Of a stretch of DNA of 64,000 nt, positions 45,910 to 58,380 are shown in pieces (positions within the stretch are counted from its first letter, which is position 1; each line of letters begins with the position of its first letter). This stretch comes from Gammaproteobacteria bacterium (GTDB lineage: Bacteria > Pseudomonadota > Gammaproteobacteria > Enterobacterales > Alteromonadaceae). The notes under the pieces were generated by a model that saw nothing but the letters and a program-made list of their open reading frames with translations, had not been told where the DNA came from and did no database searches. The stretch spans positions 1 to 64,000 of the forward strand of contig JAHJZX010000050.1 in NCBI GenBank assembly GCA_018826295.1, in the 5' to 3' direction. The translations under genes and the position numbers were made by a program.

Positions 45910-46224
45910 TTAGCCCCCGTTTTTAAACCAGAAAAACAACCAAATCAGCAAAGCGCCTGAAAGCGTAAACGCCAGCAGAAAAATAAGGCCTATTTTGGTT
46001 ACATCAGCCACCAGCTGTTGGCGCTGTATGGCAATTTCTTTAAGCAGTTTATCGGCCAGCGTTTCTGCCTGATAGGCTGATTTTCTCATCAGTTCGTCAG
46101 CATGGGTGTTAATCAAGCCTATTTTTTGGTCAATCAGCGGCGAGATCTCATCGTCGATAATTTTCTTCGCTGCCTGATTTACCTGGTCAAGCTCTTTGGT
46201 CCAGTCGGTATTAAATAGCGCCAT
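45910..46224 (-). CDS. Coiled-coil tail-anchored membrane protein
   Basis: A 104-residue protein: long amphipathic helix, then a hydrophobic helix near the C-terminus (IGLIFLLAFTLSGALLIWLFFW) with a short basic end. ATG at 46224 has AGGAA 5 nt upstream. It could be a small membrane effector or an anchor for the helicase complex. No recognised family. Confidence 0.65.
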   Translation of the reverse strand: MALFNTDWTKELDQVNQAAKKIIDDEISPLIDQKIGLINTHADELMRKSAYQAETLADKLLKEIAIQRQQLVADVTKIGLIFLLAFTLSGALLIWLFFWFKNGG

Positions 46225-46240: not shown

Positions 46241-46435
46241 TTAGAGCTTCGCTTTAATGCTAACCAGCATTTTTTCAGCAATGTTTAGCTTAACCCGGTT
46301 TAGCGGCTCACCACCGCAAGATGGGCATTTATCCAGCACCTGGCCGGGTAAGCGCACATCACCCATCGGCGGGAATAGCTTGCTCCAGCCACAAGAGGGG
46401 CAAATAAGCTTAAAAGCTGGGGTTTGTATTGGCAT
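46241..46435 (-). CDS. Small zinc-ribbon protein
   Basis: A 64-residue protein with two CPSCG knuckles (residues ~14 and ~39 from the ATG at 46435), a rubredoxin-like or zinc-ribbon fold. AGGG lies 6 nt upstream. Same strand and spacing as its neighbours. Confidence 0.75.
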   Translation of the reverse strand: MPIQTPAFKLICPSCGWSKLFPPMGDVRLPGQVLDKCPSCGGEPLNRVKLNIAEKMLVSIKAKL

Positions 46436-46468
46436 AAACATCCCTATTTGGTGTTCTTTTTTAATAGA

Positions 46469-49400
46469 CTATTGGGCTGCAGCTCCATGCTCCAGAGGCT
46501 TAATTACGACTTTGGTTATTTTACTATTCTTCCAAGCATACAGCTCTGCAGACTTTATAATATCAGGGTATAGATTTTTACCGTCAGCATATTGACTCTC
46601 AAGATGCCTTTTATTTCCAAAGAAAATCAAATTCTCTTTTGCTCTTGAACAGGCAACGTTAAGCCTCTTTTTATCTAAGATAAACTGCAGTGAACCATGA
46701 GTTCTCACAGTTGAGTAACAAACTAGCTCTGCTTCACTTCCTTGAAAACTATCGACTGTATCAACTTTTATCGACAGTGTACCAACATTGATAATTTGAC
46801 CAGTACCATATGGCTGCAGAAGCTTACGAATTAACCTTTTTTGAGCACCATAAGGCGTTATCACAGCAACATCAATTTTTCGCGTAAATCTATTTGATAA
46901 ATTTATCAGATAGATTTGTATAGCTTTTGCTTCTGCTTCATTCTCAAAACTTGTTGTGCCTTGAGGTTTTTGTTGTCTGCCCCAGACATCAACCCAGATT
47001 AAACAATCCTGCTCAGCAAAGTCACTAGTATTCAATGGATCTTTTGAGCCATTGGTTAGTCGATTCTCTCCATCTTTGGAATAAAACAACCTCGCGACTA
47101 AATTGCCAATTGGGTCGGCCATGCGAAACTGCTCAGTCAACTGCGCTGTGCATGCTTTAGGTAACTGTTCGAAAAGCATCTCAAAAAAACTGTGCTCCAA
47201 AAAAGTTTCTTCAAGAAATGACATTTCTTCTTTTGCACTATCCTCACGCAGAACAGGTGCAATACTTGGAGGGAGTTGGTGATGATCTCCAATCAATATC
47301 GCTTTTTTTGAACGTAACAACGGGATAAGAAGTTCCGGCACTGTAGCTCGACCAGCCTCATCAACGATAGCAACGTCAAAGCTCAAGTGATCAATTCCCG
47401 CCTTTCTTGCAGCCAGACCTACACATGTAGCGCCGATAATATTTTTGTCCATCAGCATCGTAGTGAAGAATTCGTCTGACACCTTATGTTGCCCTCTAGA
47501 CTCTTTAATCTGAGTTAAAAGCGCGCGCCACTCATACAAAGCATCTAATTTCGCATCTTCAATTGAATTAACTTTATTTAATGACTGCGTTAAGCAAGAT
47601 TCAATGAACTGTTCAAATATAGTGTCAAAGTGATCTTCTATAATTTCGTCAGCTATCTTATCAAGATTACCTACCCTTACGACATTTACGTCTTTAGATA
47701 CTAAATTAGGGTGTTTTTCTTTAAATTTTGCTATCGCATTATCCACAGCAGTGTTTTGTTGAGAAACGACTAATATTCTTTGTCTAGGGTTGTCTTTTAA
47801 AGTTTGATAGAGCATCTCAACAATAACGGTTGTTTTTCCAGTACCAGGTGGGCCTTGTATCATCGCAATATGCTTAGCCGATAACGCTGTTTTAACAGCA
47901 TGCATTTGGCTTTCTGTTAACTGACTGCTCCAATCAATGTTGAAATCCCACCACTTAGCAATCATATCTGCTGCGTAGGCATTGGGGGCTAAAAATATCT
48001 CCTTGAGCCTTGGTTCAATTAATCGGTCTTCAAAAAATGCATCTAATGCCTGCTGTTGCCTTTGCAAGGCGGCGTTAGGTTTAGTTATGGTTAATCGAAA
48101 CTTGTTTGCTTTTTTAAAATCAAATTTCTGATAACTGAATAGCGGTGCGTCGATAAAAACATTACCTTGCTCTAAAAAGTAACTTGCCCTATTAAGCCTT
48201 TTTTGCTCTATTGCTGGGATATATTTTGTTTGAAACTCGTCCCAAATAAACAAACGACAAGAATAAATAAATTGTGCATTCTCTATATCACTCATAAAAG
48301 AATACACAGAGCTATCGTTAACAGTTGCAGCCTGGATAATACTGTTATCAATTTTCAGCTGATAATGAGTGTTTTTATCCTGATTAATTATTGGGATACA
48401 TTCAAAATCAACACTTCGCTCACTCTCTTGCCGACGCTGGTACTCCACAACATGTTGCCAGCGTTTAAAAAACTCTATTTGTTTAGCTCGTTCGAATGCC
48501 AAAGATGAACTAATTGTTAGCTGGCTTACAAAGTTAAGTAATTGTTCTATACCATATTTCCAACCAAACAAATCGCTGCCATTGAGTTCAGCAGTGATTA
48601 AGATAAATTCAAACGGCAAGTCTGTTCCTATCTGTGGTTGTTTGTGGATAAAAACGTTCTTCACTCTCAAACCGTCTAATGTTTCGGTAAGCTCGCACTC
48701 CAGCTCTACATGCCCTTTTGCAAGACGGATGCTGTAATCGTTTAGTTCAAAAGATAAGAAAGACCAATATGTTTCAGTATCAAAAAAAGAAGACTCAGCA
48801 GAAATTTTCACCAAATTATTATCATCAATCTCTATATATAACTCTAACGCGTCATAGCCCACAACAGATGGTGCTTTTTCACTGAGTAATGGCGGTGGTA
48901 GTTTTTTGCCATCAGTTCTAATCCCAAACGGATCATGCGCCAAAGTTGCGTCAAAACTATCAAAATACACCTCCAACCGCTGCCCAGGAATGCAGCGTAA
49001 ACTGGTATGTATTAAGTTCTGAGTGGGCAGGCTTGCACTTCCAAGTCCGTCAAAATAACTACACAGATATTGCTGTTTTCCACTAACAAAACGCTCTACT
49101 ACTATCTCTAAAGGCCGGTTCAATCGAATGTAATCATGGAAAGCAATTCCCTTGGCAACACAACCAAAAAAGCGACTCCCTTGGCTTTTCACTACTAAAA
49201 TTGGAAATTCTTTGCCGTAGCGTAAAGCCAATGCTTGTTGTTTCTCTGCATCGCCACTAAAGCCGTTAAAAGTAAGAGTATGGCGGCTACCTTCAAGTGG
49301 TTTGTTCATGTCAGATAAATCAACAATCAACAATTTACCTAAATACAACCATTCTAATGGTAAGAGAGCATCAGGTATGTTGCGCTTCATTAGCCAGTCA

Positions 49401-49852
49401 TAATGCTGCTTCACCCAAAGCTCGCTAATTGTAGTACGCTCATGTTCAAGATACTTAGCGTACTCTACGACACGTATTTTAGCGTCCTCTAATTTTGCAT
49501 ACTCTCTTTTTAATGCAGACTTGCGATAGGGGCTCGTGGTTTCTGCATTAATTTCTGATTGTATTATTTCAAATAATTCATTGTAAGAATTAACTATTGG
49601 CTGAACTTTACTTGCATGAATCTCAAGCTCTCTGAATAGCAAACTCATATATGCCGATGCTTGCTCTCTTCGCTTTGCATTATAACTATCGTAATCCTGC
49701 TCTGATAAATTGTTGTATTTACCAAGAATATCATCACGCTCACTATATGCTTGGGCTTGCCGTTCTAATTCATCTTTAGTCTTTTGATTGTATAACCAAG
49801 AAACGGCTGTAGCAGTAAGTATTACGGCACCTCCAATCACAAAGTGAATCAT
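46469..49852 (-). CDS. Membrane-anchored SF1 helicase (UPF1-like AAA)
   Basis: A 1127-residue protein. Residues 1-20 are a single hydrophobic helix (MIHFVIGGAVILTATAVSW), followed by a long charged helical region, a beta-rich middle, and a C-terminal SF1 helicase: Walker A GPPGTGKTT near 663, Walker B DEAGRATVPELL near 827, GDHHQLPPSIAP, DTVDSFQGSEAELV and RLNVACSRAKENLI near 1068. The motor is of the UPF1/COG1112 type. Its ATG shares one base with the previous stop. AT-rich. A helicase with an N-terminal membrane anchor is unusual. Confidence 0.85.
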   Translation of the reverse strand: MIHFVIGGAVILTATAVSWLYNQKTKDELERQAQAYSERDDILGKYNNLSEQDYDSYNAKRREQASAYMSLLFRELEIHASKVQPIVNSYNELFEIIQSEINAETTSPYRKSALKREYAKLEDAKIRVVEYAKYLEHERTTISELWVKQHYDWLMKRNIPDALLPLEWLYLGKLLIVDLSDMNKPLEGSRHTLTFNGFSGDAEKQQALALRYGKEFPILVVKSQGSRFFGCVAKGIAFHDYIRLNRPLEIVVERFVSGKQQYLCSYFDGLGSASLPTQNLIHTSLRCIPGQRLEVYFDSFDATLAHDPFGIRTDGKKLPPPLLSEKAPSVVGYDALELYIEIDDNNLVKISAESSFFDTETYWSFLSFELNDYSIRLAKGHVELECELTETLDGLRVKNVFIHKQPQIGTDLPFEFILITAELNGSDLFGWKYGIEQLLNFVSQLTISSSLAFERAKQIEFFKRWQHVVEYQRRQESERSVDFECIPIINQDKNTHYQLKIDNSIIQAATVNDSSVYSFMSDIENAQFIYSCRLFIWDEFQTKYIPAIEQKRLNRASYFLEQGNVFIDAPLFSYQKFDFKKANKFRLTITKPNAALQRQQQALDAFFEDRLIEPRLKEIFLAPNAYAADMIAKWWDFNIDWSSQLTESQMHAVKTALSAKHIAMIQGPPGTGKTTVIVEMLYQTLKDNPRQRILVVSQQNTAVDNAIAKFKEKHPNLVSKDVNVVRVGNLDKIADEIIEDHFDTIFEQFIESCLTQSLNKVNSIEDAKLDALYEWRALLTQIKESRGQHKVSDEFFTTMLMDKNIIGATCVGLAARKAGIDHLSFDVAIVDEAGRATVPELLIPLLRSKKAILIGDHHQLPPSIAPVLREDSAKEEMSFLEETFLEHSFFEMLFEQLPKACTAQLTEQFRMADPIGNLVARLFYSKDGENRLTNGSKDPLNTSDFAEQDCLIWVDVWGRQQKPQGTTSFENEAEAKAIQIYLINLSNRFTRKIDVAVITPYGAQKRLIRKLLQPYGTGQIINVGTLSIKVDTVDSFQGSEAELVCYSTVRTHGSLQFILDKKRLNVACSRAKENLIFFGNKRHLESQYADGKNLYPDIIKSAELYAWKNSKITKVVIKPLEHGAAAQ

Positions 49853-50340
49853 TAAGCCCCCTTGCTTTTCACCAAGTGAATAAGAGTGACTAACTCCTGA
49901 GAAGATATTGTGCCATTTTCGACTTGCCTTAAAATATCCATAACCTGCACATGCGAATTAGCCTCTGAAGCCATGTTTTGAAGATGTATGTTTCGGTTGT
50001 TGTCACCATTAACTTTTATTTCTTTCCGCTTTGTTTTCTCTTCTTCCTTAGTTCGAGCAACATCACTAGCATATTTCTTAATGTCGGCTTCAGCTTGAGC
50101 ATATACCCTCTTTGTTAATTCACGCTCTTTTCCATAATCAAGAGCATTAGAACCAAGATCGACTAACCCACTCACTACCGAGGTAAAAATTTGCTGCACC
50201 TGAGCACCATCAAGCTTTCCTAACATGTCATTCAGGACTGCTGAATCAGTATTAGGTGTTGTTTCTGATGGGTTTTTCTTAGGAGTTTCTGTTCTGTTAC
50301 GGGGAATATATTCACCTTGAATTGACTGCGGTTTCTTCAT
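49852..50340 (-). CDS. Unknown protein with Y-x-K-E-R-E-L-T-K motif
   Basis: A 162-residue helical, charged protein. DYGKERELTKRVYAQ occurs near residue 68, matching a motif in the next gene upstream. Low-complexity basic N-terminus. Coupled to the helicase (TAATG overlap). Confidence 0.65.
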   Translation of the reverse strand: MKKPQSIQGEYIPRNRTETPKKNPSETTPNTDSAVLNDMLGKLDGAQVQQIFTSVVSGLVDLGSNALDYGKERELTKRVYAQAEADIKKYASDVARTKEEEKTKRKEIKVNGDNNRNIHLQNMASEANSHVQVMDILRQVENGTISSQELVTLIHLVKSKGA

Positions 50341-50352
50341 CCTGATTCTCCT

Positions 50353-50883
50353 TTATTCAACATTTTCAATTAATATCATTAAGCAAGCGCGTAAATAATG
50401 ATCTAAATTCGCCTGCAAATCTTGAAGTTGTTTAAAACTACAGCCATTTTCACGCTCCTTTCGAAGGCACGCCTGCATTGCTTTAGCTATTTTTACCTGC
50501 TTGCCAATTTGCACGAGAAAATTTTTCATCTGCAAATCCGATAGGTTAGCTTTGTTAGAAAGCTCTTTAATTCTCTCGTCACCCAGCGCCAGTGCAGTTT
50601 CATACTTAAGATGCATTATTTCTAATTGTGATTTTAGCTCCGCTTCAATGCGCTTATTTTCCGCGAGTATCTGTTTTGTTATCTCACGCTCACGAGCATA
50701 TTTAAAGTAACTATTAAAGGCACTGATAACTGACAAGGCTGCATCAGCATAGATGGCTACCGGGTTTACCCTTTTTGCCGCGCCTTTAAAGCCATGCTTT
50801 ACAAGCATCATTCCATACTTTCTTACATGTTTATCTTCAAACAAATGTTCAGCAAACGACTGATATTTATCTACCGCCTTCAT
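50353..50883 (-). CDS. Unknown coiled-coil protein sharing a motif with its neighbour
   Basis: A 176-residue protein: hydrophobic helix near residues 42-55 (AIYADAALSVISAF), then KYAREREITKQILAE, which parallels the neighbour's DYGKERELTKRVYAQ, then a coiled coil of ~70 residues. No recognised family. 12 bp before the next gene on the same strand. Confidence 0.65.
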   Translation of the reverse strand: MKAVDKYQSFAEHLFEDKHVRKYGMMLVKHGFKGAAKRVNPVAIYADAALSVISAFNSYFKYAREREITKQILAENKRIEAELKSQLEIMHLKYETALALGDERIKELSNKANLSDLQMKNFLVQIGKQVKIAKAMQACLRKERENGCSFKQLQDLQANLDHYLRACLMILIENVE

Positions 50884-50885
50884 AA

Positions 50886-51923
50886 CTAATCGACCCTAAT
50901 TAGATGTGAAAAGTCTATATTTTCAAATACTTCAGAGTAGCTAAATTCATGCAATTGCCAAGCTAGTGAAAAATGGTGTTCTACCGACAATAAAGGGCTA
51001 ACCATCTCGTGTTCATTGGCGTGCAGCAGCAATGTATTAGCCTTATCTTCATGAAAAATCGAGTTATCTTGCAACGTACCATCAGGTAACTTTTTACCAT
51101 CAGTACAGTCGTAACATAAAGGAATGTCGTTATACACTTCGTTGTCATGTTCAGAATAGACGTTTACCAAAGGCGCTAAGCTTTGTTTATCCTGCCATTC
51201 AAAGCCCGTTGGCTGCTTACAAGTAGTCGTTAAAACTAAAAGTCTGGTGTATAAACGCAGTGGATTTTTAAGGTTATCATGGCGTTGCATCGCATTATTA
51301 TGTCGCTTTAGCGGCAATGTTACGTAGATACCGTGTTGTTGATTTTCCTCAACGCTAAATAAAGTAATATCCCATTCCATCCCCCACTTGCCATTTTTTA
51401 AATCTGCAAAATGCTGAAAATCTGAAATAAGCGATGGCAAAATCTCAGGAAGACTTTTCTTAAATCTCTGCGTTTGTTGAAAGCAATCCTCAGTATAATT
51501 CGATTTTTTCTCTCTTGGGGTTTTGACTTGGATAGCAGAAGCCGGTAGTTCTTGTATTGATTCGCAATCGCTTAAGGCTAAGAACCAAGAACTGGTATGA
51601 GAGCCATAATTCTGATCCATATAGACTTCAATTTCTTTACAATGTAAGTTACTAAGAGCGTAAGCGGCTAATTTCCCCGATTCTGTCAGCTGAAATTCAT
51701 TGTTAATAAACTTCAAACCTTGCAATCTCTCAATTACCGGTTGCAGTTGGTACTCATCAAGGCCTGTAATGTCATAAATTGCTTGTAAAGGTAGTTCATG
51801 TCTATGAAGTACATTCAGCATGAAATGTGAAATCTCGCCCAATTCGGCCAAAATGCGATGCTTGATTGTCAACTGATACCGTTTGACCGGTAGCCATACT
51901 TCAACAACGCTTGATTCAGACAC
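50886..51923 (-). CDS. Unknown protein with N-terminal winged-helix-like domain
   Basis: A 345-residue protein. Residues ~15-85 resemble a winged helix (RILAELGEISHFMLNVLHRHELPLQAIYDITGLDEYQLQPVIERLQGL), with a beta-rich C-terminal half. GTG at 51923 has AAGGAG at 5-nt spacing, so it is preferred to the GTG at 51929. It may be a regulator or nucleic-acid-binding component. First gene of the AT-rich block after the 54-residue gene. Confidence 0.65.
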   Translation of the reverse strand: MSESSVVEVWLPVKRYQLTIKHRILAELGEISHFMLNVLHRHELPLQAIYDITGLDEYQLQPVIERLQGLKFINNEFQLTESGKLAAYALSNLHCKEIEVYMDQNYGSHTSSWFLALSDCESIQELPASAIQVKTPREKKSNYTEDCFQQTQRFKKSLPEILPSLISDFQHFADLKNGKWGMEWDITLFSVEENQQHGIYVTLPLKRHNNAMQRHDNLKNPLRLYTRLLVLTTTCKQPTGFEWQDKQSLAPLVNVYSEHDNEVYNDIPLCYDCTDGKKLPDGTLQDNSIFHEDKANTLLLHANEHEMVSPLLSVEHHFSLAWQLHEFSYSEVFENIDFSHLIRVD

Positions 51924-52148: not shown

Positions 52149-53276
52149 TTATAACTTGCCGGAAAAGGCTCTTTGACTCAACACATTAAACAACCCAACT
52201 TGTTCATTTAACGCACACTGAAGCACTTTAACTTTTTCTTTTGTAGCAATGACGATTTCGCTGAATTTATCTTGCAGTTCAATCGGCGGTAACATAATTG
52301 GAATATTCTGCATTTCCTGTGCATTGATATTTGCCATCCCAACGATACTTTTGCACATGTTCTGCAACGTTGCTTTACCGTGAGTAGAGTTTAAATATGC
52401 TGAGAGGTAATAAGTGTTTCCTGCTGCGTTAGTTCGCACCCTTATTAAGTATCCGGCGAAGGCTGCTGGCTCATCCAGATCATACACAGTGGTTTTACCA
52501 ACTAATTCTTTACTGTTTGTCCTATTAAATAACAGGTCACTTTTTGACACCAAATATTTGGGCTTATCGGTCTCACTAAGGCTGATATATTTTAGACTGG
52601 TCATATCCAGTGCACCTTCGTATGTGATATTGCCCATACGAAGCATCGGATAATCGGCAATTTCCTCAGATGCTTTTGCTGAAGATCCGTAATTTGCCGT
52701 TTCAACAAGCTCACGAATCGTTCCAACAGGAAACCCCTTCGGATTGGTCACCGGATCGCCAAACATCTCCAAAAACACGGCGCGGAGGAAGTCGTCGGCG
52801 AGTTGGATGGCTTGCTGGCGTTTGCGGCGGATGGCGTCGGCTTTGTCCAGTATCGCGGCAATACGTTTTTGCTCGGCTAGTGGTGGTAGTGGGATAAGCT
52901 CATCGTGCACTAAATTTCGATTTAAAGTTGGTACTCCTGCGCCTTCAACAAAACGTTCTAGTTTAAAGGCTTGTAACATGTAATAGACCCACTTTGGATC
53001 ATTACCTTTAAAATCCGTTACGTATAAAGCAGTGTTTAGTGGCCAATAATCATGTTCTGTAAAATGTACTTTGCCTATCGTCCCTGACCTTCCAGTTATT
53101 ACGCCAGGTCCTTTAATTTTCGCTTCGTTATGAGTCCCATTTTTACCATTAGCTGCAAAAATTGGGATTTCTCCCTCTACCCTATCCTGCGTCGGCAGGT
53201 CATACCCTCTCTTTAAATGAGCAACGTCCTTTAGCGGCTTAAAAGGCCAACCTGAATTATTGGCAAAGAAGCTCAC
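52149..53276 (-). CDS. hsdS: Type I restriction-modification specificity subunit S
   Basis: Reads the target half-sites of the type I enzyme (375 residues). Two target-recognition halves are visible: [11 protein letters not shown]...[13 protein letters not shown], then the conserved central helix [43 protein letters not shown], then a second recognition half ending [10 protein letters not shown]. The start is GTG, overlapping hsdM by 4 bp. TRD swapping is common in hsdS, so strain variation is expected. Confidence 0.95.
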
Positions 53277-54889
53277 AGCATGGCCTCCAGTGCTTTTAAA
53301 TCCGCCAGAATATCGTTTTCCAGCGCGACCAGCTTATTCAGGATCACTTTAGGGTCGTCATACTGCTGTTCGGCATACACCACTTGCTTGTAGCGGTTAA
53401 TGGATAAGTCGTACTTATTACCAGCAATTTCCGCTTTGCTTACCCAAAAGGCTTTTCGGGTGCGATCGTTTTGCTCGGTGTCGGCAATGGCTTTGTCACG
53501 CGCTTTATACCCGGCTACTAATGCTGGCAGGTCGTTGTCTTTGATTGGCGTGCGCTTATCATCCAGGCTAAAGCCGTCGGCTTGTACATCGTAAAACCAG
53601 ACGTGGTCGCTTCCTTGAGAACCGGGGCCACCTTTGGTGAAAATTAAAATGGCGGTAGAAACCCCGGCATAGGGCTTAAATACACCGCTTGGTAAGGAAA
53701 TAACCGCTTCTAACTGGTTTTGCTCTACCAGTAACTGACGCAGTTGCTGGTGGGCGTTGGATGAGCCAAACAATACGCCGTCGGGCACAATGGTGGCGCT
53801 TTGGCCGCCAATTTTCAGCATATTTTCAATCAGCGCTACAAACAGCAGCTCGGTTTTTTTGGTTTTAACTTTGCGTAAAATATCCGGGCAAACGTCTTCT
53901 TCGTCCAGGCTGCCTTTAAATGGCGGGTTGGCTAGGATAATGTCAAAACCGGCTTTAGCCTCGCGCGGGAAGCGCTCTTTAAAGCTTTGGCTTAGCGTGT
54001 CCTGATAATGAATATCCGGCTGTTTAATGCCGTGCATTACCAGGTTCATGGCCGCGACGCGCAGCATGGTGGCGTCAAAGTCAAAGCCGTGGAACATATC
54101 GCTATCGATATGGGCGCGCTGCTCGGGCGTGATTAAATCACCAGAGTACAGTGTATTTACCTGCTGCCTGCCATTGGCATCTAACAAGGGCTTGCCCTGC
54201 TCGTCAAATAACGGCTCTTGCTCTACGCCGTCTTTTGAGGTGTATTTTTCCAGCAGGTATTCGTAGCTGCTGACTAAAAAGCCGCCGGTGCCGGTGGATG
54301 GGTCACAAATGCGGCTGTTAATGCCCGGGTCGAGCATTTCAACCATGGCGCGGATAATATGCCGCGGCGTACGGAACTGGCCGTTAATACCGGCAGTGGT
54401 TAGCTTGCTTAACAGGTACTCGTATAAATCGCCCTTGGTGTCACTGTTTTCCAGCGGTAAGTCGTTTACCATTTCTACTGCTTTCACCAGCAGCGACTGC
54501 TTTTGGATCATCAGCTGGGCGTCTTTCATAAACTCAGCAAATATTTGTGTACCAGAGCCTGAACCTTCATTGCCGTCTTTTACCGACTGGGCCGAGCTTT
54601 CAGCGAAAAACGGAAACAACTCGTCTTTTACCAGCTTGTAGAGTTTATCGGCCCCTAAATGGCGGAAGTGCTGCCAGCGCAGGTGCTGTTGGTTGTCATT
54701 AAAACGGCGGTGAAACGCCTTTCCGCTGCGCGAGGCGAGCTTTTCATCTTTTTGCTCGTTCATATCCAGCAGGCGGGCATACATTAAAAAGGTGATCTGC
54801 TCGATAACCGTCAGCGGATTGGTTATACCGCCGGTCCAGAACTCTTCCCACAGTTTATCGATTTTGCTTTTTAACGGGCCTGTAATCAT
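53273..54889 (-). CDS. hsdM: Type I restriction-modification methyltransferase subunit M
   Basis: N6-adenine DNA methyltransferase of 538 residues. AdoMet motif I is in [18 protein letters not shown] near residue 197; the catalytic motif IV is NPPF near residue 317. N-terminal HsdM_N domain ([16 protein letters not shown]). AGGAAA lies ahead of the ATG. Confidence 0.95.
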
Positions 54890-54945
54890 GTTGTTTCCTG
54901 TAATGCTTTATTCAGTTTTGACTGCTAAGTGTGTATTGCTCAGTG

Positions 54946-57900
54946 TTAGGGGCTAATTGTTTTTTCAATACGCGGCGCTTTGCTGCCCAGCGGCACGTCG
55001 AACTGACGGATAAACTGCTGGATCACATCGGCCTGTTGCTGGCTGAACACCCCGTCCAGCCCCATGTCGTGAATGCTGGTAAAGGGCGCATCGTACAGCT
55101 GTTCTATGGCAATTGCACCGTAGCGAATTAAATGGTTTTTCAGCATGCCAATAAAACGCTGCTGTTTGGCGTTCATGTGGGTGTGGGTTTGCTGCACAAA
55201 GTCGGTAAAGGCGCGCTCTATCGCTTCTTTATCCATACCCACTATGGTGCGCAGTATTTTATCTAAGCTTACTGTCGACTCGGGGAAAAACTCTTTTAGC
55301 GTATTTAAATCGACATTAGGGTTTTGCGTATGCACTAACGCATTTAACCGGGCTAAATCGGCTTCGCTTACCTGCTCACCGGCGCGGATTTTTTGCAGTA
55401 CCGCATCGGTATCAAACAGCGGCGCTAAGGTTTTTTCTACTTCCTGCCGGTAAATTTGGTAATCCACCGACACGATATTGGCGGCGCGCTCGGTTACCTT
55501 GTACTCGGCCGTATCTTCTTTTACATCCAGCACCAGCTCTGGTGTCGGCGTAACAATAGCTTTATCACGCAGATGAATAATGCCGCGCAGTGCTTTACGG
55601 CTTTGCTCTAAAGCGTTAAAGCTAAGGTTTCGCCAGTAGCTGTCTTGCTGAATTTCAGCAATGGCGCTGGCTTTGGCTCGCACTTCGTTTAGGTGCATTT
55701 GCAGGGTGGTAATTTTACCCAGCAGCGCCTGGCGGGCGATATCAATTTGGCTGGGATCGGTAAATAACAGCGTCTGCAGGTTGGCCATTTCGGTATCAAA
55801 ACGGTAGGCCTCGCTTTGGCCCATAATGTTGCGCCACTGCATTAACGGCGCAATGCTTTGCCACAGCATGTCTTTTGTTGCCGGGGAAAATTGGTTCAGC
55901 CGCTTTTCGTCTTTGCAGGTTTCAACGTCTTGCCAGTTGTCGCGCACGGCAATGGTGTTCATATCCAGCGCGGTAATATCGGCCTGAATAAGCTTAATAA
56001 CTTCATCAAAGGTCGCCAGATCTGCCTTTTTCAGCGCGGTTTCAGCCAAAGTTAACCGCGCTTCAAACAGCTTTTGCATCAGCGATTTGCTTTGTTTTAC
56101 GTCTTCCGGCTCTGGGTCGAGGTCGAAGTACTCGAAGTTTTCCCAGTGGTCGAAAATTAAAAAGTGCGTTTTATCTTTGCCCGGGCCATACAAATTAGGA
56201 CAAAGCCGGGTGCCGCGACCAATCATCTGCCAAAACTTAACTTTGGATTTTATTGGTTTGGCGAATACCAGGTTAACCACTTCGGGCACATCGATACCGG
56301 TATCGAGCATATCAACCGAAATAGCAATGCGCACTGATTTTTCATCGGTGGCTTTAAACTGATCGATAAGCTCTTCGGCGCGCTCGTACTTAGAGTGAAT
56401 CACCCGGCAAAAGTCCGGATGTAACTGCGGGTACATTTCACTAAATAACGTAGCCAACAGCTCGGCGTGGTTAATGTTGCGGGCGAACACAATCGACTTG
56501 CCCGGCAGCTGACCGTCGACATCACGCAGGCCTTTTTCCATTAAGTTACGCAAGATCACCCGGTTGGTATCTTTGTTTTTCACCGCTTCGTCAATTTGGG
56601 TGGCGTCAAAGTCCAACTCATTCGGGTCGATACCCTGCTCTTCCAGTTGGGCAATTTGCTCATCACTCAGGTTGTCTTTTTTAATGCCGTCGCGCAAAAA
56701 CTTAGTGGTAAAGCTGACAATCTTGTACGGCACCAGGTTACGGTCTTCTATTGCCTGCTCCAGCGGGTAATTGGCGGTAGGCAGTTTGTAGTCACAGCCA
56801 AACAGCTCACAGGTAGAGCGCGATACCATTTCAACCGGCGTGGCGGTAAGGCCGACCTCTAAGGCGTCAAAATACTTAAAAATATCGCCGTAAATGTTGT
56901 AGATAGAGCGATGCGATTCATCGGCCACAATCAGGTCAAAATAGCCGACATCGTATTGCTGAAAAATACTCATCATGCCAGGGTAAGTGGCAATAAATAC
57001 CCGCGCACTGGCGGCAGCGTCTTTTTTACTTTTACCCACCACGTACAAAGGCTCTTTGGTGTGCTCGTTAAAGGCATTGGCGGCTTGCTTACGCAGCTCT
57101 TTACGATCACACAAAAACAGTACACGCTTGGCCCAACCGGCATCGAGCAGACGTTTAGCCAGCGCAATAGACACGCGGGTTTTACCGGTGCCGGTGGCTT
57201 GCACCACCAGGGCTTTGCGGTGTTTATCGCTAAAGCGCTCACACACCCGGCTAATGCTTTCAATCTGATAAATACGCCCTGCCACCTTGGTGTCGATCGG
57301 GGTTTGATTGAGGTTTTTCTTTAAACTGCGCTGCTTAATTAAGTATTGCAGGCTGTCTTTACTGTAATAGCCATATACCTTGCGGCTGCTGTAGCCCTGG
57401 GCATCGTCCAGCAGGCGGATGTCGTAGCCGTTGGTGTAAAAGATAACCGGGCGGCGGCCATAACGCTTTTCCAGCGCATTGGCATATAAAATGGCCTGCT
57501 GGCGGCCCTTTTCTACCAACTCACGCGTGCGCTTGGCTTCAATAACCGCCAGCGGCAGTTCGTCATCATCAAACAGCACGTAATCGGCATAGCCTTTACC
57601 TGTTGCGGTGGGCTGGCCATCCACTTCAAACTCTTTGCGCACTTGCTCGGTTGAACTGTCATCTAAAGACACATTCCAACCGGCAGCGCGTAAATCCATA
57701 TCAATAATACGGGCACGGGTTTGCGCCTCGTTAAAATTGATACCAGACATAGTGGCAAAGCCCGCTTTGGCTTTGGCGACTGCGCCTTCGTCAATGGCTT
57801 TTTTCAGGCTGGCCGCTTCTTGCTGGGCTTTCAGTTGGGCGGCTTCAGCGGCTTTTAACTCATCCAGCGCTTGCTTTAATCGTGCTTCATGTTCGGCCAG

Positions 57901-58380
57901 TTTGGCTTGCAGCTGCTTGTTCTCGCGGGCGAACTGCGCATCGGTTTGCTCTGCCAGCTTGGTGCAATCAGGCGCGATAAACTCCGGCAGGTTTTTCGCA
58001 TCGCCACCGCAGTAGGCTACGTAGAAGTAACCACTAACAAAGTAACACTCCTGTAATATCCACACTGCTTCCTGCTGGCTGACTTTGCCCTCGTGCGCCG
58101 CGCGGTTACCGCTTTTACGAATAGCATGCAGTTTGTCGATAATTTTACTGGGAACAACGGAGGTGAAGCTGTCGGCATTAAGCTTGTCGACAATGCTGGC
58201 GTTGGGGTACACCGGCAGCTGTAATTTGGCGTAAATCACACCGACAATTTTTTCCATCAGGCAGCGCATTTTCACCAGCGCACTTTGCGGATCACTACAA
58301 GCGTAATCCTGAGCAAAGGCCGCCAGCTGATATAGCTCGGGTAGCGCTTCAAGATGTTTAAAATTTGCGGCTTGCTTCAT
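54946..58380 (-). CDS. hsdR: Type I restriction endonuclease subunit R
   Basis: Translocates DNA and cuts at a distance (1144 residues). N-terminal DUF4145 domain, then a coiled coil, then the nuclease motif (DELPLAVIEAKRTRELVEKGRQ near 278), then an SF2 motor: TGTGKTRVSIALAKRLL near 395, DESHRS near 486, and QMIGRGTRLCP. The C-terminus (about 1000-1140) matches the EcoEI-type R C-terminal domain. Gene order R-M-S on one strand. Base composition resembles the host better than the AT-rich block downstream. Confidence 0.95.
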   Translation of the reverse strand: MKQAANFKHLEALPELYQLAAFAQDYACSDPQSALVKMRCLMEKIVGVIYAKLQLPVYPNASIVDKLNADSFTSVVPSKIIDKLHAIRKSGNRAAHEGKVSQQEAVWILQECYFVSGYFYVAYCGGDAKNLPEFIAPDCTKLAEQTDAQFARENKQLQAKLAEHEARLKQALDELKAAEAAQLKAQQEAASLKKAIDEGAVAKAKAGFATMSGINFNEAQTRARIIDMDLRAAGWNVSLDDSSTEQVRKEFEVDGQPTATGKGYADYVLFDDDELPLAVIEAKRTRELVEKGRQQAILYANALEKRYGRRPVIFYTNGYDIRLLDDAQGYSSRKVYGYYSKDSLQYLIKQRSLKKNLNQTPIDTKVAGRIYQIESISRVCERFSDKHRKALVVQATGTGKTRVSIALAKRLLDAGWAKRVLFLCDRKELRKQAANAFNEHTKEPLYVVGKSKKDAAASARVFIATYPGMMSIFQQYDVGYFDLIVADESHRSIYNIYGDIFKYFDALEVGLTATPVEMVSRSTCELFGCDYKLPTANYPLEQAIEDRNLVPYKIVSFTTKFLRDGIKKDNLSDEQIAQLEEQGIDPNELDFDATQIDEAVKNKDTNRVILRNLMEKGLRDVDGQLPGKSIVFARNINHAELLATLFSEMYPQLHPDFCRVIHSKYERAEELIDQFKATDEKSVRIAISVDMLDTGIDVPEVVNLVFAKPIKSKVKFWQMIGRGTRLCPNLYGPGKDKTHFLIFDHWENFEYFDLDPEPEDVKQSKSLMQKLFEARLTLAETALKKADLATFDEVIKLIQADITALDMNTIAVRDNWQDVETCKDEKRLNQFSPATKDMLWQSIAPLMQWRNIMGQSEAYRFDTEMANLQTLLFTDPSQIDIARQALLGKITTLQMHLNEVRAKASAIAEIQQDSYWRNLSFNALEQSRKALRGIIHLRDKAIVTPTPELVLDVKEDTAEYKVTERAANIVSVDYQIYRQEVEKTLAPLFDTDAVLQKIRAGEQVSEADLARLNALVHTQNPNVDLNTLKEFFPESTVSLDKILRTIVGMDKEAIERAFTDFVQQTHTHMNAKQQRFIGMLKNHLIRYGAIAIEQLYDAPFTSIHDMGLDGVFSQQQADVIQQFIRQFDVPLGSKAPRIEKTISP

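Follow-up and report, generated by a model that had tools for sequence, protein, structure and literature searches.

A four-gene unit with a predicted membrane-anchored UPF1-like helicase as a putative anti-phage module in Rheinheimera-type and other genomes

What is the role of six open reading frames (ORFs) that lie, all on the minus strand, immediately 3' of hsdS in a Rheinheimera-type genome? The block is situated in contig JAHJZX010000050.1 (assembly GCA_018826295.1), of which the whole stretch of 64,000 nucleotides analysed here is referred to as the window, and its ORFs are named g1 to g6 in order from the hsdS side. The presented results indicate that g1-g4, encoding a winged helix-turn-helix (wHTH) protein, two small paralogous proteins and a UPF1-like helicase with a predicted membrane anchor, are one unit, about which very little doubt is left. 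This unit is putatively, and quite probably, directed against phages. The reading favoured here, to which about an even chance is given, is that g1-g4 represent one anti-phage module, a nuclease-less and membrane-tethered variant of the systems in which a UPF1-like helicase is combined with a wHTH partner (Mokosh MkoA/MkoB and CnuH/CnuE).

The evidence for the unit comes from its recurrence. A scan of genome contigs with g4 gave 28 candidate stretches, among which two relatives were confirmed, R. texasensis (L018), assigned to another genus of the same family, and R. maricola (L019), which belongs to the genus of the source genome. In both of them, hsdS is followed by the complete set of six genes with their order unchanged. 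Profile searches added the loci G241, G435, G478, G946 and G973 and one viral-contig record (L036/L040). The nine loci belong to two bacterial families and one prophage record. In every one of them g1-g4 directly follow each other on one strand and in an unchanged order; they were never found split, and the check by recurrence in other genomes that had been proposed in an earlier reading of the sequence alone (the sequence-only reading) is thereby answered. The profiles of the single genes, built from seven of the nine loci, were run over 3881 frames of 13 loci, and those of g5 and g6 matched in three of the nine only, namely the Rheinheimera copies, with one further weak g6 match in L049, outside the nine. 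The proposal of one system therefore stands for g1-g4 and not for the six genes, g5 and g6 being proposed as accessories added in Rheinheimera. The lowest pairwise identities over the seven distinct rows are 17% for g1, 19% for g2, 18% for g3 and 33% for g4, and the identity matrices of the four genes correlate pairwise with r of 0.94-0.99. The ratios of nonsynonymous to synonymous substitution rates (dN/dS) between the window and R. maricola are 0.28, 0.18, 0.19, 0.20, 0.07 and 0.12 for g1 to g6, and those between the window and R. texasensis, where dS is high, are 0.09-0.17. The pairs with G478 (G946, G973) gave 0.07 to 0.39, and G946 against G973 gave 0.45 for g1, 0.82 for g3 and 0.18 for g4, but these are near-identical copies and the ratios are unsure. 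Because dN/dS is 0.07-0.28 for the six genes and g1-g4 occur together in nine of nine loci, the block goes beyond chance. Unrelated genes lying together at random would agree with the absence of g5 and g6 matches outside the three Rheinheimera loci, and small gaps alone are no proof of a system; for g1-g4, however, this explanation is refuted by their contiguity and correlated divergence, and it retains practically no probability. The features of the block and its neighbours are as follows.

50886..51923, minus strand: g1, 345 aa (amino acids; start 51929 or 51923, 347 aa from 51929), N-terminal wHTH and C-terminal part of about 240 aa of unknown fold; ORF with 7 homologues aligned
51645..51857, minus strand: wHTH, g1 residues 25-95 approximately; modelled best within a poor AlphaFold2 prediction, aligned with the MkoB N-terminus
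50353..50883, minus strand: g2, 176 aa, one moderately hydrophobic stretch at residues 42-60; paralogue of g3
49852..50340, minus strand: g3, 162 aa, coiled-coil-like with a weak SHOCT-like C-terminus; paralogue of g2
46469..49852, minus strand: g4, 1127-aa UPF1-like superfamily 1 (SF1) helicase with predicted membrane anchor; AAA_11, AAA_12, PADLOC MkoA
49793..49849, minus strand: predicted N-terminal transmembrane helix of g4, residues 2-20; hydrophobic in 7/7 g4 proteins
46610..47923, minus strand: helicase core of g4, residues 644-1081; GPPGTGKT, VDEAG, GDHHQL, QFRM, DSFQGSE, NVACSRA
46241..46435, minus strand: g5 (start 46441 or 46435), 64-66 aa, four invariant Cys, zinc-ribbon type; three Rheinheimera copies only
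45910..46224, minus strand: g6, 104-aa coiled coil with a C-terminal predicted transmembrane anchor; three Rheinheimera copies only
45931..45987, minus strand: predicted C-terminal transmembrane helix of g6, residues 80-98; mean Kyte-Doolittle (KD) hydropathy 2.17-2.51 in 3/3
52149..58380, minus strand: hsdS, hsdM and hsdR (type I restriction-modification, R-M), neighbours outside the system, with divergence independent of the cassette

The arrangement on one strand with tiny gaps or overlaps, described already in the sequence-only reading, is borne out, the gaps from g1 to g6 being in order 2, 12, -1 (an overlap), 27 or 33, and 16 bases. The bounds of 46241-51923 given there had to be extended, since g6 lies past the end of the zinc-ribbon gene at 46241 and the true end of the block is 45910. 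The g1 gene starts 219 bases after hsdS, or 225 bases if its start is 51923; by reading of the sequence, GTG 51923 is better spaced after AAGGAG than GTG 51929. The conserved start of g6 is ATG 46224 and not TTG 46281.

With hsdS directly before each of the three Rheinheimera copies, and a type I HsdR ahead of that in G435, the cassette might belong to the type I R-M system as a set of accessory genes. A type I R-M gene adjoins the cassette in four of the nine loci, but no R-M gene was noticed when the ORFs of the other five (12-16 kb each) were read by eye. Moreover, between the window and R. maricola the cassette genes are 81-93% identical, whereas the identity is 45% for hsdR, 60% for hsdM and 37% for hsdS, which indicates separate histories of cassette and R-M. 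The accessory explanation is thus largely refuted and very improbable, and carriage downstream of a type I R-M locus, as had been suggested for the system, is not one of its properties. In R. texasensis, hsdR and hsdM are 86% and 89% identical to those of the window; the downstream genes differ, one of them matching PDC-M48B with 302 bits. Between hsdR and hsdM of R. maricola there is a gene (L019 3059-4930) for an RmuC-type protein of 623 aa (RTasRmuC, 317 bits), hydrophobic at its N-terminus, which recalls ShdA of Shield, described in PMC11090510 from type I R-M loci. The AT enrichment noted for the block was confirmed for the window, in which the G+C content of the block is 39.4% against 48.7% for hsdRMS. 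Among seven loci for which it was computed, the G+C of the cassette is 6.9-9.3 points under that of its neighbours in four (the window, both other Rheinheimera and G435), and 1.6 points under in G241, while G478 and the viral record show no such decrease. Low G+C is therefore not a constant property of the cassette, and AT-richness as a character of the system was rejected.

The wider settings of the nine loci are consistent with a role in defence. The distribution is sporadic, and in six of the nine loci the cassette is near defence genes or beside mobile-element genes. In R. maricola it is placed between the type I hsdRMS genes and a complete Zorya (L019 14183-21726; ZorA 740 bits, ZorB 340, ZorC 450, ZorD 1336). 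In G435, GmrSD and the type I HsdR are upstream, and TniQ and TniB genes, with a 374-aa gene without match next to TniB, are downstream on the opposite strand; this cassette likely resides in a Tn7-like element. In G241, one side of the cassette is taken by a phage-type integrase and a 111-aa gene that matches nothing in Pfam or PADLOC, and on the other side tRNA-Pro follows 433 bases after g4. The stretch from integrase to tRNA-Pro would be one element; no direct repeat at tRNA-Pro was present in the first 9 kb of the contig among the best 20 of 31 repeat families. In the viral record, g1-g4 stand at one end and are followed by an acyltransferase and then by myophage tail genes that resemble those of Yersinia phages and of Pectobacterium phage ZF40; the operon may be a part of this prophage or may lie just beyond it. 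G478, G946 and G973 are three related chromosomes of another genus, with a TonB-type receptor beside the cassette in all three and metG in two (by eye). Integrase, TniQ/TniB or prophage genes beside the cassette in three of the nine loci would also suit a module that targets plasmids or other mobile DNA, or stabilises nearby elements, instead of acting on phages. Nevertheless, the cassette also occurs between known anti-phage systems in R. maricola, one chromosomal neighbourhood without visible mobile genes is kept in the three related species, and no family match to partition, replication or toxin-antitoxin functions was obtained, which makes this alternative unlikely.

The cassette is rare, as estimated from genome samples that overlap. 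Among the 60 nearest genomes, a full-length g4 was present in two, the source's own included, and some helicase match in 19. In a search of 60 genomes for an empty site, the gene flanking the operon was present in only three, and no such site was obtained. The g1 profile matched in four of 196 family genomes; one of these matches, a weak and interrupted one in G180 (E 9e-5), was dropped, as no g1-g4 match at E 0.01 was located in the 14 kb around it. The profile of the N-terminal region of g4 (g4-N) matched in 4/394 genomes of the order, in the source's own only among 369 of the class (to which a second class-wide search added nothing), in 4/129 of the genus of G435 and in 1/15 of that of G241. 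For g6, two of the 196 family genomes gave strong matches (the source and R. texasensis, E <1e-61) and two gave weak ones (E ~1e-4, in G097 and G143), which were not taken as g6; the former recurs (E 1e-5, 541-aa frame) and the latter does not. No near match to the window block or to the viral copy was found in E. coli genomes. Among plasmid records, none covered 80% of g4 (348 and 413 records had partial helicase matches) and none matched g1. With the viral copy, ten phage records gave matches that were confined to a part of its helicase. Scans of viral contigs with A1 and A4 confirmed nothing, and the scan with A12 gave one record, whose own protein found itself alone on rescanning.

The helicase g4 is the best-defined component. 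The sequence-only description of a 1127-aa helicase with an N-terminal membrane anchor is supported, the anchor being a prediction, by a hydrophobic stretch of 19 residues, which begins at residues 1-5, in all seven distinct g4 proteins (mean KD 1.59-2.07). The helicase motifs are intact, the Pfam matches are AAA_11 (2.5e-43) and AAA_12 (2e-38), and the PDB relatives UPF1/NAM7, SMUBP-2 and SEN1 all align within residues 637-1087. About 46 residues follow the helicase core before the C-terminus. Upstream of the core, long helices are predicted to about residue 150, together with a beta-rich region, in a poor AlphaFold2 model of residues 1-630 (4-row alignment, mean predicted local distance difference test score, pLDDT, 45.5). 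Among 5027 PADLOC models, the best for g4 is MkoA, with 415 bits and the best stretch at residues 590-1101; g4 of G478 reaches 379 bits. Two MkoA references used as controls scored 738 and 619 bits over the whole length, kinase included. Helicases without a kinase, from Streptococcus salivarius, Acinetobacter soli and Aliarcobacter cryaerophilus, reach 331-361 bits with this model as well, so the score demonstrates helicase kinship and not membership. The NCBIfam model of the IGHMBP2 family gave 230 bits, under its cut-off of 349. The 66 columns before the helicase align with MkoA at an hhalign score of 62.3, against at most 24.7 in 60 shuffles and 17.0 for the reversed profile, and several MkoA share the linker pattern 'ALDA...DR.V..RLK.I.L.P' of g4.

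The second element common to the related systems is the wHTH partner. The AlphaFold2 model of g1 (4-row alignment, mean pLDDT 42.8) was used for the wHTH region alone, in which the block means are 72-83 for residues 31-80 and 56-63 at the edges. The g1 N-terminus aligns with the N-termini of seven MkoB-family proteins at an hhalign score of 47.4, against at most 20.2 in 60 shuffles and 11.9 for the reversed profile. When the MkoB N-terminal profile was run over 506 ORFs of 20 loci, its own seven rows aside, it found three of the seven g1 proteins and the S. salivarius wHTH with E of 4.5e-6 to 0.0012. The wHTH family PF24409 matches three of the five g1 proteins scanned, with E of 9e-4 to 3e-3, below the cut-off. 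Beyond the wHTH, g1 matches nothing convincing.

The cassette could be an ordinary helicase-nuclease system of CnuE/MkoB type. Its RNase or DNase, diverged and unrecognised, would then be the C-terminus of g1 (about 240 aa) or the N-terminal 640 aa of g4, and g4 would deliver it to phage nucleic acid. In the published relatives (PMC11090510), the partner of the helicase carries a wHTH joined to nucleases of various kinds, and some MkoB-family proteins have a C-terminal PLD (one scanned, just under the Pfam cut-off, and two annotated). The motif HxK-x4-D near the C-terminus is present in four of seven MkoB-family controls and in none of the seven g1; it is also missing from the other three controls, rhizobial-type MkoB-family proteins, so such divergence happens. 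In four of seven g1 (the window, R. texasensis, R. maricola and G241), HxK occurs just past the wHTH, six residues before D105, which is invariant in all seven. The spacing of six is, however, not the spacing of four seen in the PLD motifs of MkoB, and HxK is absent from G435, G478 and, at that position, the viral copy. Other invariant polar residues of g1 are limited to Q152, R155, E162 and N267. Neither g1 nor the part of g4 before the helicase matched a nuclease family in Pfam, NCBIfam, PADLOC or PHROGs, and the g1 profile and the g4-N profile (first 630 residues) had no PDB sequence match up to E 1. Such a hidden nuclease would, moreover, leave two extra conserved genes unexplained. The explanation by a diverged nuclease is possible, and it is held to be clearly less probable than the nuclease-less module.

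The two extra genes, g2 and g3, are paralogous, as the sharing of motifs noticed in the sequence-only reading had suggested: the profile comparison scored 47.2, against at most 16.4 in 60 column shuffles and 16.7 for the reversed profile, and the g3 profile picks up g2 frames in six of the nine loci with E of 5e-7 to 1.1e-3. Invariant in the seven rows are T69 and Q71 of g2 and T76 of g3. No family match above cut-off was obtained, only weak ones, in scans of several copies with Pfam and PHROGs and of the window copies with NCBIfam and PADLOC. The best PDB match of g2 or g3, a weak one of g3 to a PNPase fragment (E 0.0027), was not believed.

For the nuclease-less module, the following course of action may be proposed. 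The predicted N-terminal helix would hold g4 at the inner membrane. There, judging from the helicase family, the SF1 motor would act on phage RNA or single-stranded nucleic acid; such action on RNA or single-stranded DNA (ssDNA) is held to be somewhat more probable than not, and the nucleic-acid surveillance suggested earlier is a putative role. The wHTH of g1 would dock on the helicase or on its substrate. The roles of g2 and g3, which have no recognised enzyme domain, form the weakest step; they might assemble with g4 and execute or scaffold the response, most likely a block of phage replication at the membrane or an abortive perturbation of the membrane. That g2/g3 serve as the effector is held to be less likely than not. 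In Rheinheimera, g5 and g6 would have joined as two accessories. A broader and rather doubtful version of the model describes a defence without nuclease, kinase or known toxin, in which an inner-membrane helicase detects incoming or transcribed phage RNA or ssDNA and signals via the wHTH to two helical paralogues, by which the membrane is disturbed or the site sealed. One helicase-wHTH sensor core would then have been paired in evolution with different effectors: kinase and PLD in Mokosh, HEPN in CoCoNuTs and membrane proteins here. As the cassette shows no recognisable nuclease or kinase, its action against phages may be of a kind not described so far.

Several observations weigh against the favoured reading. 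The MkoB N-terminal profile misses four of the seven g1, the g1 profile finds no MkoB among the same 506 ORFs, and g1 of G435 has no PADLOC match at 1e-3. The wHTH is a common fold, PF24409 fits g1 nearly as well as MkoB does, and the single-sequence matches are all weak. In the tree of 27 helicases, for which nine of the 13 relative loci were used (L010, L011, L014 and L015 were omitted, as Walker A fell outside the frame), the seven g4 form one clade with support of 100/100, but the tree does not decide whether they belong with MkoA; the seven MkoA are not one clade either, and six rows were flagged as long branches. The g1 gene lies upstream of the helicase, not downstream. The hydrophobicity of g2 and g3 is moderate (KD 0.48-1.76), without clear membrane spans. 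The models of g1 and g4-N are so poor that a hidden effector domain is possible, and no other defence gene was noticed by eye in G478, G946 and G973 (14-15.5 kb each).

If the cassette is protective, it would be a rare and compact four-gene system in which a helicase of the Mokosh/CoCoNuT type is brought to the membrane without a recognisable nuclease. It would separate sensing from killing in this class of helicases and offer a testable case for UPF1-like helicases in bacterial immunity. The analysis also points to two conserved protein families, g2 and g3, with weak database matches only.

Some further genes are found around the block. Between hsdS and g1, a 54-aa ORF (52129-51965, minus strand) is conserved in R. 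maricola (L019 7724-7888, plus strand), the hsdS of which differs, and is absent from the 84-base gap between hsdS and g1 of R. texasensis; it may be either a remnant or, in this sub-lineage, a component of the cassette. Downstream of g6, a separate three-gene unit (45776-42788, minus strand) encodes an AAA_15 ATPase near the NsnB and PDC-M55A models, a 291-aa protein without match in the Pfam, PADLOC and NCBIfam scans and a 229-aa protein to which PDC-S63 and DUF6933 match weakly. A UvrD/helicase-IV-like protein lies beyond it.

Among known systems, Zorya also contains a helicase and adjoins the cassette in R. maricola. It is membrane-linked; ZorD, however, is an SNF2-type helicase, and no ZorA or ZorB match is listed by PADLOC for the cassette genes. 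The PLuB helicase-like protein (NF040671) matches g4 in its helicase part with 167 bits, far under the cut-off of 999. Mokosh type I shares with the cassette the UPF1-like/COG1112 SF1 helicase, a similar pre-helicase linker, a partner with an N-terminal wHTH and the operonic arrangement. Mokosh is described in PMC11672841 by a COG1112 RNA helicase and a PLD nuclease, to which type I adds a kinase; PMC10952713 gives PLD for both types and, for type I, also NERD. According to PMC11291487, Mokosh degrades viral transcripts. Its Ser/Thr kinase has no counterpart in the Pfam and PADLOC matches of g4 or of its first 630 residues, whereas the two MkoA references scanned match kinase models, one of them in Pfam as well; HRD or DFG is found in the first 450 residues of none of the seven g4, and at least one of them in six of seven MkoA. 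No PLD or NERD match was obtained with Pfam, PADLOC and NCBIfam in g1, g2, g3, g5 or g6. Furthermore, unlike in Mokosh type I, the partner gene is upstream, two small paralogous genes are added, and the N-terminal hydrophobic stretch of 7/7 g4 is present in 0/7 MkoA compared. Since neither kinase nor PLD, two features given for Mokosh, was found, canonical Mokosh was rejected and the cassette is not filed under it. With Mokosh type II the likeness is restricted to the SF1 helicase domain (MkoC, 128 bits on g4); MkoC, according to PMC11672841, fuses helicase and PLD nuclease in one protein, and g4 has no PLD match.

The CnuH-CnuE pair of type II/III CoCoNuTs, as presented in PMC11090510, resembles the cassette in a UPF1-like helicase operonic with a wHTH partner and in predicted helical or coiled-coil parts. 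The cassette differs in that its wHTH gene is upstream and not downstream, its helicase has a predicted membrane anchor, g2 and g3 are extra and no HEPN, Vsr or PLD effector is recognisable. A Pfam scan of ten window proteins, g1 through the UvrD-like helicase, found neither CnuB (McrB-type GTPase) nor CnuC (McrC). The word 'Mokosh' was not found in the main text of PMC11090510, and none of its 'transmembrane' passages shown concerns CnuH. A description of the operon was not found in the open-licence PubMed Central (PMC) literature, in which most hits were judged from title and abstract, and PADLOC was the 2023 version, so later predictions could exist. Helicases of the same kind were seen in other company as well. 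On Acinetobacter and Polaromonas plasmids (L044 2166-7317, L045 2022-7344), a UPF1-like helicase of 583-585 aa follows a gene of about 127 aa and stands with larger unknown genes; the three Polaromonas partner genes have no PADLOC match. L041, L053 and L054 hold rhizobial-type MkoA-MkoB pairs, in which the MkoB-family protein lacks the HxK-x4-D of PLD and the third gene is annotated as a PP2C phosphatase. On a Streptococcus salivarius plasmid (L042 1467-7007), a 498-aa UPF1-like helicase comes after a 148-aa MkoB-type wHTH and three genes that PADLOC does not match strongly; here the helicase-wHTH core may be joined to yet another set of effectors. The statement of the sequence-only reading that none of the combination matches a known defence system was too strong, as the helicase is related to MkoA and the wHTH protein probably to MkoB, and both resemble CnuH/CnuE.

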